Virus record (IMG/VR): IMGVR_UViG_3300030098_005334
Span: 1-62,765 of that record
Origin: a virus
Reading direction: 5' to 3' (one strand)
DNA: 62,765 nt
The translations under genes were made by a program, and so were the position numbers. Shown here one piece after another: positions 1 to 61,643 of the stretch (positions within the stretch are counted from its first letter, which is position 1; each line of letters begins with the position of its first letter). A model generated the notes under the pieces. That model did not search any database. It saw only the letters and a program-made list of their open reading frames with translations, and was not told the origin of the DNA.

Positions 1-578
1 TTATGTTCCGCTTGGAAGACAAACATAAAGTTGAACGTGCCTGAAATGCCGAGAGGCATACCGTCACTGAATGATCCTTGTCCGAAAGGATAGACGAGGA
101 ATACAGCAAACGCGGCAGATACTGGTGCAGAGTAAGCAACACAGATCCAAGGGCGCATGCCTAATCTATAACTAAGTTCCCATTGGCGTCCCATGTAAGC
201 TGAGATACCGATAAGGAAGTGGAAGATAACAAGCTGATATGGTCCACCATTGTAGAGCCATTCGTCGATGGTTGCTGCTTCCCAGATTGGGTAGAAGTGG
301 AGTCCAATTGCGTTGGAGCTGGGAACAACGGCTCCTGAGATGATGTTGTTTCCATACATGAATGAACCAGCTACTGGCTCACGGATACCGTCGATATCAA
401 CGGGTGGAGCTGCAATAAATGCAACGATGAAACAAGTTGTAGCTGCAAGAAGGCAAGGGATCATTAAGATTCCGAACCAACCTACATAGATGCGATTGTT
501 GGTAGATGTTACCCACTCGCAAAACTCGTCCCAACCTTGCAAAGGACTGCGGCTCCTCACTAAAGATGAGGTAGTCAT
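1..578 (-). CDS. psbA: Photosystem II D1 protein (partial, 3' end cut by window edge)
   Basis: Encodes the first 192 residues of D1, the reaction-centre subunit of photosystem II in the thylakoid membrane. Reading leftward from the ATG at 578, the protein opens with [20 protein letters not shown] and contains the D1 hallmarks [20 protein letters not shown] and [20 protein letters not shown]. The window ends just after the FQAEH motif, whose His is D1 His190, the partner of TyrZ; about 165 residues are missing. Cyanophage psbA genes replace the fast-turning-over host D1 so that photosynthesis continues during infection. The gene faces away from the early genes. No clear Shine-Dalgarno precedes the start. 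Identity is certain; the truncation is the sequence edge, not a mutation that can be seen. Confidence 0.97.
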
Positions 579-5066: not shown

Positions 5067-5828
5067 ATGAATCTAATTACAGCAACAGCAATCTACGTGG
5101 GAGATACAGCCACTGAAAGTGGTACTCGCACCATGCAATTCCATATAAAAGGCACTGGCAATAAACCTGTAGACATTCCTGTAAATTTGGTACCCAGTTT
5201 CGCAGCGGGGGATACCTGTGTGCCAGGAGCTTTTGAAACTGGGAAAACCATACTAATAAATGGAAGGCTATATCCGCAAGAAAACGGGCCAATGTATGTG
5301 GTTCCAACACAACCTCTTCAAGCTGTACCAGCTAGTACAAAACTTAATCAAATATTAATTGCTGGTGGTTGTTGGCTTCCTAATGAGCAACGCAGAGAAG
5401 ATGCACTTAATTTCTTATTACTTGTAGGTACCGCTCCTCCACAAAAGGCTATCGGCCACACATGGCAAGATACTTTGGTCTTTCGCATGGAATCATGGAA
5501 AGATGATGCAGAACGTCTTAAGAAATTTCTATATAAAGGTAGACAATTATGTTTAGGTGGCTCACTTAGATTTGAAAACTGGACAGGTAAAGATGGTAAT
5601 CAACATGTGGGTTACAAAGTTCGTGTAAGATCTAATCAATATTCATTCTTTGGTAAAAATAAAAAAGTTGAGGGTGAGGCTAAATCACCTCCTATCTCTG
5701 ATTTCAAAGATAGAGAAGTATTTGAATCGCCTCATCAACAAGCTATAGCTAAACCGAAAACTAATGTTGTGGAATTTCCCACTACAGGAAAGGCTTCGGA
5801 AGAGCATGACGATGGCATTCCCTTCTAG
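5067..5828 (+). CDS. ssb: Single-stranded DNA-binding protein
   Basis: 253 aa. The N-terminal two-thirds is beta-rich with two OB-fold-like stretches (about 1-90, TILINGRLYPQENGPMYVVP; and about 93-190, LFLLL-type strands followed by RQLCLGGSLRFENWTGKDGN). The C-terminus is low-complexity and ends in the acidic tip DDGIPF, matching the DDDIPF tail by which bacterial and phage SSBs recruit replication partners. It coats single-stranded DNA at the fork. Neighbours are DNA polymerase upstream and a gene of unknown function downstream. Confidence 0.8.
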   Translation: MNLITATAIYVGDTATESGTRTMQFHIKGTGNKPVDIPVNLVPSFAAGDTCVPGAFETGKTILINGRLYPQENGPMYVVPTQPLQAVPASTKLNQILIAGGCWLPNEQRREDALNFLLLVGTAPPQKAIGHTWQDTLVFRMESWKDDAERLKKFLYKGRQLCLGGSLRFENWTGKDGNQHVGYKVRVRSNQYSFFGKNKKVEGEAKSPPISDFKDREVFESPHQQAIAKPKTNVVEFPTTGKASEEHDDGIPF

Positions 5829-10113: not shown

Positions 10114-12684
10114 GTGTCCAAAGAGTCCAACGACAAAAAAAATAATCAGCTCAGGTTAGAACCTGGTGAGATAAATCTTGACTATATACCGTCAGACTGG
10201 CCTCTTACTCCATTAAAAGAAAAAAGAGCTTACGTTGTTAATTGGACAGATCAACCATACACAAAAGAAAGGATAAAATGCGAGCTTGATGAGGGAAGAG
10301 CAACAGGTGTAGGTCTTTTAACTGGACAATGGTCTAATTCTGGTGGATTAGTTTGGGTAGATATAGACGGTCCAGAGGGTCTAAAGGCTCTTGAAAATCT
10401 GGCAGGAAGTCCAATGCCAGAAAGTTTGCCACCTACCCTCACAATCTCATCTGGTAAGGCTGGAAGGCACAGATTGCTTTACTTTATACCTGCATCAAAA
10501 CTTCATACGATCCCTGATAAAGCGACAATAAAAATCGGGCTACCAAACTTTGAAATTCTTTTTAGAAGACGTCAAGGAGCAATCATGGGATTGCATCCAG
10601 AAACAGAGGGATACTTTACAACTACACATGGTGGATTTGAATTTGCTAAAAATCCTCCAGAATTACCTCAATTTTTATATGACGCAATAGCTAAAGCTTT
10701 TCCCACCACTCGTTTTAAAAAACAACCGAAAGCCGGAATTGTTACCCAACAAATAAATCTCTCATATGAAGAGGGCTCTGAGTTCGCAAAAACAGATGAA
10801 ATAAATCAAGCAAAAATTTACCTAGATCATCTCAATCTTGAGAGAGCCGTTGAATACGACGAGTGGCTTACCATAGGAATGGCTTTACATCAAGTAGATG
10901 ATTGTTTATTAAAAGAGTGGGTTGAATGGTCAGCACAAGCAGAGAATTTTCAAGAGGGAGTATGTGAACAAAAGTGGTCTACCTTTGAGAGAATTGATGG
11001 CACTTCTGCCCCTGAAGGATCTGCTGGACTCCACACCCTCAGAGCAAAAGCTAAAGAAGATGGATTTTTAGAGCTAGGTAGCTTTGTAGTTGATTCTCCC
11101 GAAGACTTAGCCGAAAAAGCCAAAAAATATTTGAAAGATAATGATACTGATCTTACTGGCAGCACTGTGAGAAATACCTTAGCAGCATTGATGGGTGAGC
11201 CTACACAAGCAGAATCACAAAATATTCGTGAGAGAGCCTCTGGTAGAGGACGTCCGAGAACCCCACCTGCTAATGAACTAGCAGAAATGGTCTTTCAATT
11301 AGTAGTGGAATGTGGATGGAGATATGATCCCAAATTTGACACCTTTATGTTCTATCAAAAAACCAAAGGTACTTGGCGTAGAGAGGAATATAAAGATGAG
11401 TATAGATATTTCGTTCAAGATCTATTTGTACGTGAAAATATTCCAACACCTGGCGGTTTTACTTCTCATCTAATTTCTGACGTAGTGAATCTAACTAAGG
11501 CATACATCACCCACACATATTGGGACGATGATCCTGACAGACTAGCCTTTAATAATGGTGTACTTGAAATGAGCACTGGGGAGTTTCATGAACATAATCT
11601 AGAGCATTACTTGACATGGGGTCTTGATTTTGATTACACCCCAGATGCAAATCCAGGGCCAATTATTGATTGGATTAAACGTACTCAATACGGAGATGAG
11701 GATCGGGTACAAGTTTTAAGAGCTTGGTTGAAAGCTTGTTTAGTAGGTCAAGGTCATGAATTACAGCGATTCTTGGAAGTCATAGGACCTGGTGGTAGAG
11801 GTAAATCAACTTTTGCAAATCTCTGCTGTGCGTTGGTAGGTCATGGTAATTATGCTAGCTCCACATTAAACCAACTTGAACAAAGTAGATTTGAAATTGC
11901 TTCCATTAAAGGTAAAAGACTTACTCTTATAAATGATTCTGAAAGATATGGTGGCTCAGCTCAGATTTTTAAAGCTCTTACTGGAGGCGACAATCTCAGA
12001 TACGAGGAAAAAAATAAAAACGTAGGAGAACCTTTTGTTTACACAGGAATGGTTATGGTCTGTGCAAATGAACCAATTCAAACCACTGACAACACATCTG
12101 GTCTTACACGTAGAAGATTGACCATTGAATTTAATAGACCTCTTTATGACAAGAGTTCAGAAGCAAAAGAGATGATAAAACTTGATAATGGCATTGTAAG
12201 AGGGTTATGGAAGTATTATTTACCAGGCTTAGTTAACTGGGTACTAGAGATGAGCACTGAGGAAATGAGACAATATCTTCTTGATACTTATGAAAAAGTT
12301 CCGTCACTAAAAAAAGTAAGGAATGAAATCTTACTAAATAGTAATAATTTAGTTGAGTGGTTACAGTCTGAAATTATTCAAGAAGATGAAGCTGTTTCTT
12401 CCGTAGGAAAAAAGATACCCGCACCAAAAGATGCAAAAGAAAGATACTGTAATAGCAATTACCATTTATACCCTAGTTATTGTTCCTACTGTGAAGATAC
12501 TGGTTCCAAGCCAGTTGGTCAAAAAAGATTTATATCTTTACTTTTAGATTGCTGTAAAAACCAACTAGAGATGAAACAGATAAAAACATTCTCTAAAAAT
12601 GGAAGACCCTTTATCAAAGGACTAGCAGTACGTGCATCAGATCAAAAGTACATGAAAATAGCTACAATTCTGCCTGAAAGATAA
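10114..12684 (+). CDS. Bifunctional primase-polymerase / SF3 helicase
   Basis: 856 aa. The N-terminal prim-pol domain carries GVGLLTGQWSNSGGLVWVDI followed by DG, the metal-binding D-x-D at about 83-85, and a SSGKAGRHRLLYF motif (about 110-122). A PriCT-2-like region follows (about 228-300, EYDEWLTIGMALHQ). The C-terminal D5/SF3 helicase has Walker A GPGGRGKST (about 559-567), Walker B-like LTLINDSE (about 602-609) and the asparagine sensor VMVCANEP (about 647-654). It would prime and unwind phage DNA for the family A polymerase. GTG start, chosen because it precedes the conserved prim-pol segment. It is the largest early gene; the hli cluster follows 100 bases later. Confidence 0.88.
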   Translation: MSKESNDKKNNQLRLEPGEINLDYIPSDWPLTPLKEKRAYVVNWTDQPYTKERIKCELDEGRATGVGLLTGQWSNSGGLVWVDIDGPEGLKALENLAGSPMPESLPPTLTISSGKAGRHRLLYFIPASKLHTIPDKATIKIGLPNFEILFRRRQGAIMGLHPETEGYFTTTHGGFEFAKNPPELPQFLYDAIAKAFPTTRFKKQPKAGIVTQQINLSYEEGSEFAKTDEINQAKIYLDHLNLERAVEYDEWLTIGMALHQVDDCLLKEWVEWSAQAENFQEGVCEQKWSTFERIDGTSAPEGSAGLHTLRAKAKEDGFLELGSFVVDSPEDLAEKAKKYLKDNDTDLTGSTVRNTLAALMGEPTQAESQNIRERASGRGRPRTPPANELAEMVFQLVVECGWRYDPKFDTFMFYQKTKGTWRREEYKDEYRYFVQDLFVRENIPTPGGFTSHLISDVVNLTKAYITHTYWDDDPDRLAFNNGVLEMSTGEFHEHNLEHYLTWGLDFDYTPDANPGPIIDWIKRTQYGDEDRVQVLRAWLKACLVGQGHELQRFLEVIGPGGRGKSTFANLCCALVGHGNYASSTLNQLEQSRFEIASIKGKRLTLINDSERYGGSAQIFKALTGGDNLRYEEKNKNVGEPFVYTGMVMVCANEPIQTTDNTSGLTRRRLTIEFNRPLYDKSSEAKEMIKLDNGIVRGLWKYYLPGLVNWVLEMSTEEMRQYLLDTYEKVPSLKKVRNEILLNSNNLVEWLQSEIIQEDEAVSSVGKKIPAPKDAKERYCNSNYHLYPSYCSYCEDTGSKPVGQKRFISLLLDCCKNQLEMKQIKTFSKNGRPFIKGLAVRASDQKYMKIATILPER

Positions 12685-12784: not shown

Positions 12785-12937
12785 ATGACTAACAAGTCAC
12801 AAGCCAAAGCAATTGCACAAGAGCAAAACTTAACTGAAGAAGCTGAGTTAGCTAATGGTCGTTTTGCAATGATCGGAATTATTGCTGCTTTAGGTGCATA
12901 TGTAACAACAGGCAACATAATCCCCGGTATTTTTTAA
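12785..12937 (+). CDS. hli: High-light-inducible protein (Hli), copy 1
   Basis: 50 aa. Contains the one-helix chlorophyll-binding motif of Hli/SCP proteins, ELANGRFAMIG, followed by the hydrophobic helix IIAALGAYVTTG and the conserved end NIIPGIF. Hli proteins bind chlorophyll in the thylakoid and protect photosystem II assembly and repair, here supporting viral D1. An AGGT ribosome binding site precedes the ATG. Its TAA overlaps the next hli start (TAATG). Upstream, TGTAAC is repeated within 12740-12755 and TTATAAC at 12759 may be part of a promoter. Confidence 0.93.
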   Translation: MTNKSQAKAIAQEQNLTEEAELANGRFAMIGIIAALGAYVTTGNIIPGIF

Positions 12938-13137
12938 TGACAAGCTCAAGCCACGTCATTACTGAATACGGTAAGCAAAACATCTTTGGAAAAGAAACAA
13001 AACCTGTATTAGTTGAAAACTATACTAATTATCCAGAAGAAGCTGAAAAAGCTAACGGACGCTGGGCAATGATCGGTTTTGTTGCTTTATTAGGTGCGTA
13101 TCTAACTACAGGTCAAGTTATCCCTGGTATCTTCTAA
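12937..13137 (+). CDS. hli: High-light-inducible protein (Hli), copy 2
   Basis: 66 aa. A 36-residue variable N-terminus (MTSSSHVITEYGKQNIFGKE) precedes the conserved KANGRWAMIGFVALLGAYLT core and the PGIF end. Same role as copy 1. It overlaps both neighbouring hli genes by a TAATG junction, indicating translational coupling in one transcript. Confidence 0.93.
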   Translation: MTSSSHVITEYGKQNIFGKETKPVLVENYTNYPEEAEKANGRWAMIGFVALLGAYLTTGQVIPGIF

Positions 13138-60831: not shown

Positions 60832-61643
60832 TTAATTTTAAATTCTCTATATTTACAAGGGTGTTCGTCCCCTAAAACGCCTTAAAAAAGGCCAAAATGG
60901 GGCAAAAAAAAATGGTAGGTATCTGGCGCCGCCTGTCCTCAGTTCTTCGCGGAAACAAAAAAAAGAAATGTGACATATGATACATATTTAGGTCAAATTA
61001 TATACATTTAGCAGCCTTTTTCCACAGAAAATGTGGATAAAATGAACCTTTTTTTCACATAGTTTTACACATGTGGATAACTTTTCCACAAGCCTGGAAT
61101 TGTCTACTACTTGTAGTTATATGTATTGAATACGTCTCGACTCAGTTGCTATGACGTTTTAAAACGATTACCTACTAATAGTTGCCGTTAAATTAAGCCG
61201 CTTTGTCCAAATTTTGTGTCCAGTTCTTTTATATATCGCTTAAATCCATTGCTATGACTGACTTATTTTTCTTTGCGTAACTGTGTGTCAGACAGTTATG
61301 CAGTATATTTTCTCCAAATTGTTTCAATTTATGTAAATTAGTTGTATTTTTGCTCAAAATGTGGTTTTTTATATAGCTTTTTCTCCCCTTATTCTTTCCC
61401 ATATCTATATATAAAGAACACTCAAGCAAGGCCAGAAGGCCAAATATTCAGTAAACGTAGTTATAGCAAGCGATGGAGAGGACGTGGAAAACTCCCAGAA
61501 AACCATTTGTGACGTTTTATACATCAATACAACAGTATGTAACAAACTTATTAATTCTCTCACTACTTACATAAGTCCGATGATATATTATTCACATCGG
61601 CAAACAAGCCGCACTTTAAACCTTCTATTAAAGGTCAACAAAC
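60832..61643. other. Long intergenic region (812 bases) with DnaA-box cluster and palindromes
   Basis: No convincing gene lies here. From left: GGTAGGTATCTG (60914-60925), also found inverted at 22553-22564; the DnaA-box cluster (61018-61090); CGTTTTAAAACG, a perfect 12-bp palindrome (61155-61166); AACTGT/ACAGTT (61279-61284 / 61292-61297); CCGATG/CATCGG (61577-61582 / 61595-61600). AT-rich around 61300-61400, where duplex opening could occur. Leader of the genes at 61644 onward. Confidence 0.6.
61018..61090. other. DnaA-box cluster, putative replication origin
   Basis: Six 9-mers matching TTWTNCACA lie in 73 bases: TTTTCCACA at 61018-61026 and 61082-61090, TTTTTCACA at 61051-61059 and TTTTACACA at 61063-61071 (plus strand); TTATCCACA at 61032-61040 and 61072-61080 (minus strand). 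TTTTCCACA is the usual cyanobacterial DnaA box and TTATCCACA the strongest enterobacterial one. Alternating orientation forms palindromes. An initiation or DnaA-titration role is likely. Confidence 0.75.

Follow-up and report, generated by a model that had tools for sequence, protein, structure and literature searches.

A gene-free region of an S-EIV1-like cyanophage contig carries a predicted host-DnaA origin and a dif-like site

Does a tight cluster of DnaA boxes in a cyanophage mark a site at which the initiator of the host would start phage replication? The question is raised by an 812-bp gene-free region in IMG/VR record IMGVR_UViG_3300030098_005334, a 62,765-bp sequence (incomplete at both ends) that was analysed over its whole length and is referred to here as the window. 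On balance, we favour reading this region as a plasmid-like replication and multimer-resolution module that would borrow both DnaA and a Xer-type recombinase from the host.

The contig is assigned by its genes to the S-EIV1-like cyanophages, and its host, as judged from psbA, is probably Prochlorococcus. The psbA fragment at the contig start has its best phage matches in Prochlorococcus phages (P-TIM40, 85%), and the encoded protein is 92-94% identical to the Prochlorococcus protein. The portal-like protein has a single match among isolates, Synechococcus phage S-EIV1 (KJ410740) at 52% identity, plus 418 viral stretches. The label of cyanophage given in the preliminary description is thus supported by both genes. 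The main landmarks are as follows:

1-578, minus strand: psbA fragment, truncated by the contig end
2708-4552, plus strand: family A DNA polymerase (PolA)
5067-5828, plus strand: single-strand DNA-binding protein (SSB)
10114-12684, plus strand: PrimPol - PriCT_2 - D5_N - DUF5906 primase/helicase, a possible helicase or co-initiator for an origin at 60832-61643
60832-61643 (812 bp), no strand assigned: gene-free region in the ORF list, flanked by the structural operon (running leftward) and the early operon (running rightward)

Replication genes (encoding PolA, SSB, the PrimPol/D5 primase-helicase, a Gam-like protein and an exonuclease) lie on the plus strand at the start of the contig, and structural genes (TerL, portal-like, major head) lie on the minus strand, with transcription directed away from the 60832-61643 region. 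The S-EIV1 primase and PolA are 35% and 40% identical to those of the contig, but S-EIV1 has neither a DnaA cluster nor a dif-like site of the contig's type, and a nucleotide search of isolated phages with the 60832-61643 region returned no meaningful match. A small ORF at 12937-13137 has a weak, below-threshold match to chlorophyll-binding proteins of the high-light-inducible type. A metagenome-assembled genome (MAG) labelled Euryarchaeota (G599; L225, L564-L566) includes three or more contigs that encode S-EIV1-like portals and are phage contamination.

The description of the 812 bases as gene-free agrees with the ORF list, apart from a single ORF of at least 60 aa (66 aa, TTG-started) that is not a credible gene. 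The region aligns over its full length with the syntenic region of IMGVR_UViG_3300030107_004314 (hereafter the relative), which has the same gene order on both flanks, indicating that the box block is no assembly artefact. Features in and beside this block are:

60868-60968, no strand assigned: conserved element A (CCCC..CCTTAAAAA..GGGG, an A-run and GGTATCTGGCG), matched by blastn to L108, L111, L087, L078 and L131
61018-61026, plus strand: DnaA box 1, TTTTCCACA, identical in the relative
61032-61040, minus strand: DnaA box 2, TTATCCACA, identical in the relative
61051-61059, plus strand: DnaA box 3, TTTTTCACA (TTTTGCACA in the relative)
61063-61071, plus strand: DnaA box 4, TTTTACACA (TTTTACACC in the relative)
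61072-61080, minus strand: DnaA box 5, TTATCCACA, identical in the relative
61082-61090, plus strand: DnaA box 6, TTTTCCACA, adjoining the trios
61091-61103, plus strand: 13-bp spacer AGCCTGGAATTGT, identical in the relative at 9/13 positions, with its length kept
61104-61121, plus strand: DnaA-trio-like run CTA CTA CTT GTA GTT ATA, six NTN triplets (NAN on the other strand)
61104-61190, plus strand: iteron-like repeats with cores TAGTTAT, TTGCTATGAC and TAGTTGCCGT, three units here and four in the relative
61316-61375, no strand assigned: 60-bp stretch with the highest AT content in the region (82%, above the 99th percentile of the window)

The AT-rich stretch is a possible unwinding element; positions 61332-61381 are 94% identical in the relative. 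Element A is hairpin-like, precedes the structural operon and is common to many S-EIV1-like phages.

All six matches to TTWTNCACA that had been reported at 61018-61090 are present at the correct coordinates; TTATCCACA and TTTTCCACA account for two each. The window holds 14 such matches against 9.2 expected, a total that is ordinary (12 of 100 shuffles reach 14); it is the clustering alone that is unusual. Six boxes fall within 73 bp, whereas no more than two occurred in the same span in any of 300 third-order Markov genomes, which bears out the earlier statement that six together are not random. A cluster beyond chance in non-coding DNA is what is looked for in an origin.

In the relative, 52/54 box bases are identical, compared with 222/285 fourfold-degenerate portal sites (Fisher p=0.0006) and 530/649 of the remaining bases of the region (p=0.004), these statistics being one comparison between moderately close phages (portal 94% identical in amino acids). 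The relative is the only close one to cover the region, so that the block is known from two genomes. Approximately 46 other non-redundant relatives with a homologous region have no box cluster, making the DnaA block lineage-specific; the expectation that the boxes would be conserved in related phages therefore holds for one close relative and fails for the others. Among the latter, several of low GC show TGTAAC/GTTACA motifs in their stead, which indicates that the family can do without DnaA boxes. In L108, L087, L078, L186 and L188 such motifs are repeated where the boxes would lie and may mark the site of a different initiator. Another viral contig family (L015, L017, L036, L048, L054) shares a four-box DnaA cluster without trios.

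What follows box 6 bears on how the site might open. In the Basal Unwinding System of bacterial origins, a DnaA box is followed by a spacer of at most 16 bp (13 being the commonest) and at least three trios with a central adenine, 3'-GAT-5' being preferred; distal boxes supply more DnaA, and a tandem second box beside the proximal one, present in 57% of predicted systems, is optional (PMC8287927, PMC6669920). In the window, TTTTCCACA is followed after 13 bp by CTACTACTTGTAGTTATA, and in the relative TTTTCCACA is followed after 13 bp by CTCCTACTTGTAGTTATA; the trio-like run, the only such match in the window, is identical between the two at 17/18 positions. Consensus box, spacer and six NAN trios thus all agree with the published definition. 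The spacer AGCCTGGAATTGT contains no recognisable second box, so the architecture fits this sequence definition except for the optional tandem box. The chance of such a run beside any of the six boxes is 8e-5 at a spacing of 13 and 8e-4 at 10-16, figures that are optimistic because the motif was noticed after the sequence had been seen.

The same geometry is found at the host origin. Upstream of dnaN in Prochlorococcus, ..CCACA is followed after 13 bp by CTACTACTACTAA in nearly all genomes examined, and the phage TTTTCCACA-13 bp-CTACTACTT repeats this box-13 bp-CTACTA arrangement. The likeness to bacterial oriC (B. subtilis incC and the Prochlorococcus site) extends to the box array, the proximal box, the 13-bp spacer and CTACTA-type trios in the same orientation. 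The phage block differs in lying in a phage and away from dnaN, in having a spacer that lacks the weak tandem box, in packing its boxes into 73 bp and in overlapping iteron-like repeats; a search for extended homology between the region and host oriC gave nothing. The box-13 bp-trio arrangement is absent from all of 58 further viral loci selected for a box pair. Across the viral collection, the spacing from box to CTACTA is flat among the matches listed, with no peak at 13, so that motif and spacing alone are not diagnostic. An unrelated tailed-phage contig encoding a tape measure and Dit (L466, 1800-2100) carries several DnaA boxes and TTATCCACA-13 bp-CTACTACTGCTACTAAC, and is putatively a second phage with an oriC-like unwinding motif.

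Taken with the clustering and the conservation in one relative, this box-13 bp-CTACTA geometry makes an origin recognised by host DnaA the best-supported reading of the block, which is a predicted and not a proven origin. Host DnaA (dnaA is present in 8/9 host genomes) would bind the six-box array, and a DnaA filament would grow from box 6 (61082-61090) across the 13-bp spacer onto the trio-like strand at 61104-61121. The duplex would then open as at Prochlorococcus oriC, a helicase would be loaded, and the phage primase-helicase, SSB and polymerase would take over in what may be theta-type replication of a circular genome. The earlier proposal of a host-dependent origin accordingly gains from the clustering, the one-relative conservation and the oriC-like geometry, and loses from the approximately 46 relatives without boxes and from the restriction of the block to two genomes; GC skew proved uninformative. 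An inflection, the cumulative GC-skew minimum, does lie near the region, but skew at third codon positions is approximately zero in every gene block and the raw skew follows gene orientation; it was set aside as evidence for an origin.

The most serious alternative, though an unlikely one, is an iteron-type origin at which a phage protein (the PrimPol/D5 primase-helicase or another) binds the 61104-61190 repeats and DnaA is only a helper, as in many theta plasmids. Three to four iteron-like repeats adjoin the boxes, the first of them overlapping the trio-like run, which could itself be part of a repeat; a PrimPol-D5 primase-helicase is encoded; and the box-less relatives keep the region with other repeats. 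Against this, the repeats in the window are few and degenerate, and the TTGCTATGAC form also occurs by the host dif-like site described below, so that the repeats may serve as accessory sites of recombination instead of as replication iterons. Repeats of the TAGTTATGAC/TTGCTATGAC type are present at 61104-61190 of the window and in L003, with single copies by the dif-like site of the host. Among the phage ORFs scanned (a set that excludes some small ORFs, from a contig incomplete at both ends), nothing matched a DnaA- or Rep-type initiator, the latter being the mark of a theta plasmid iteron origin. The statement that the phage has no recognisable initiator is nevertheless weakened, because the primase-helicase at 10114-12684 could act as an origin-recognising protein in the manner of P4 alpha. 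DnaA-assisted origins are familiar from theta plasmids and phage-plasmids, such as P1 oriR, RK2 oriV and pSC101. The phage region resembles these in grouping DnaA boxes with repeats and an AT-rich stretch close to a resolution site, and differs in that no Rep initiator was found and in belonging to an S-EIV1-like cyanophage with structural genes and its own polymerase.

Next in rank, and less probable, is control of the divergent promoters by DnaA acting as a transcription regulator. The boxes do lie between divergent operons, and box 1 shares bases with a promoter-like site at 61024-60997 of the minus strand. The relative, however, has lost most of this promoter-like stretch while keeping the boxes, and promoter-like sites are no commoner than expected (2 found, shuffles giving 3.8). 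We give slightly less credence again to a sink, in which amplified phage DNA would titrate DnaA and stall host oriC: the many strong boxes, including two perfect TTATCCACA, would suit it, but a sink needs neither a 13-bp spacer with a trio-like run nor a place at a divergent operon junction beside a dif-like site.

That neighbouring site, of Xer type, lies in the same gene-free region and is an addition to the preliminary description. Its elements are:

61205-61221, plus strand: paired GTCC motif GTCCAAATTTTGTGTCC, the accessory motif of the dif-like site
61249-61258, plus strand: TTGCTATGAC, seen as well at several host sites, where it separates the GTCC pair from the core
61275-61301, plus strand: dif-like core GCGTAACTG TGTGTCAGA CAGTTATGC, with a 9-bp centre and one arm mismatch to the host site

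The core is 185 bp from the DnaA-box block. When the whole region was searched against 400 Prochlorococcus-family genomes, intergenic matches to 61202-61302 of the window were obtained. The host site reads GCATAACTG CTTTATAGA CAGTTATGC, with GTCCA..TGTCCA approximately 75 bp before it, and the phage core differs from it at one of 18 arm bases. The host site occurs in 32/41 genomes of one Prochlorococcus-like genus, almost always singly under the strict pattern (looser extra copies exist in some genomes), and in the examples examined it is flanked by a DnaJ-domain gene and pheT. Its distance from dnaN is 0.46-0.49 of the circumference in six complete genomes. A single-copy site lying opposite the origin behaves as a dif site, and we propose it as a candidate dif. 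A 2011 survey failed to predict dif in any of the cyanobacteria tested (PMC3025954). The candidate sites, at L575 (G434:C1:336876), L571-L582 and others, are not among the predictions of that survey.

Nine low-GC S-EIV1-like phages, including the window, have a core with at most three arm mismatches; it lies without exception in this region, and 1.56 Mb of sequence contain no other. Chance would give 0.5 cores at up to three mismatches and 0.001 at one. The GTCC pair accompanies the core in 8/9 of these phages. With the GTCC motif, the site at 61275-61301 could allow a host Xer-type recombinase to resolve multimers of the phage genome; a less likely role would be to link the phage with the terminus of the host chromosome. 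The host site has a different central 9 bp, which would favour self-resolution over recombination with the chromosome. The hosts have a conserved tyrosine recombinase of approximately 390 aa, a possible candidate for acting at the site.

Integration at host dif is disfavoured, as a search of 266 Prochlorococcus genomes gave no S-EIV1-like portal gene, the same query having matched the phage-contaminated MAG. Other identities for the core were rejected: an RNA gene (Rfam gave no family in the 60832-61643 region or in host loci), a tRNA attachment site (no tRNA is nearby) and a terminator, as which it was listed for its likeness, since the position opposite dnaN in hosts favours dif. It is possible that in the phage the core is also a terminator.

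Pseudo-dif sites in phages are known (PMC3025954). The phage site, like Xer sites on other mobile elements, has host dif-type arms, a variable central region and an accessory motif nearby, and differs from them in that its cyanobacterial arms are unlike classic dif. Such sites include plasmid cer, psi and pdif and those of integrative phages such as CTXphi. From the integrative phages it is further set apart, no integrated copy of this phage type having been found in the 266 Prochlorococcus genomes. Extra dif-like cores with GTCC pairs were also observed in host islands (L622, 8573 and 18027, at ~1.03-1.05 Mb of G434; L623, 7809, at G323:C1:759808). The islands contain tyrosine recombinases together with genes for phage-type RNA polymerase, the latter full-length in G323 and short in G434. 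We read such islands as mobile and phage-derived, and the dif-like signal seems common to several mobile elements of these hosts.

Neutral capture of a fragment derived from host oriC and dif, without present function, is very improbable: the motifs resemble those of the host and the DnaA block is lineage-restricted, but the boxes are better conserved than synonymous sites, the spacer has drifted in sequence without changing in length, and extended homology to host oriC was not found.

Host-DnaA origins and Xer-exploiting elements are each already known. No marine tailed phage that combines the two, with host-like trio geometry, was found in the open literature (subscription journals lying outside this search). 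As predicted from sequence, the region mimics both ends of the host chromosome cycle, the start site and the terminus recombination site. More tentatively, we suggest that S-EIV1-like Prochlorococcus phages may at some stage be circular mini-chromosomes, started through host DnaA and trios and resolved through host dif/Xer from one 800-bp module, with the same signal revealing the first candidate dif of marine picocyanobacteria. If so, an abundant and mostly uncultured group of cyanophages would start replication via host DnaA and resolve its genomes via a host recombinase, and infection would be coupled to the cell cycle of the host. For cyanobacterial dif prediction, the candidate in Prochlorococcus would close a recognised gap (PMC3025954), and it offers a way of testing directly how chromosome dimers are resolved in the most numerous photosynthetic cells.
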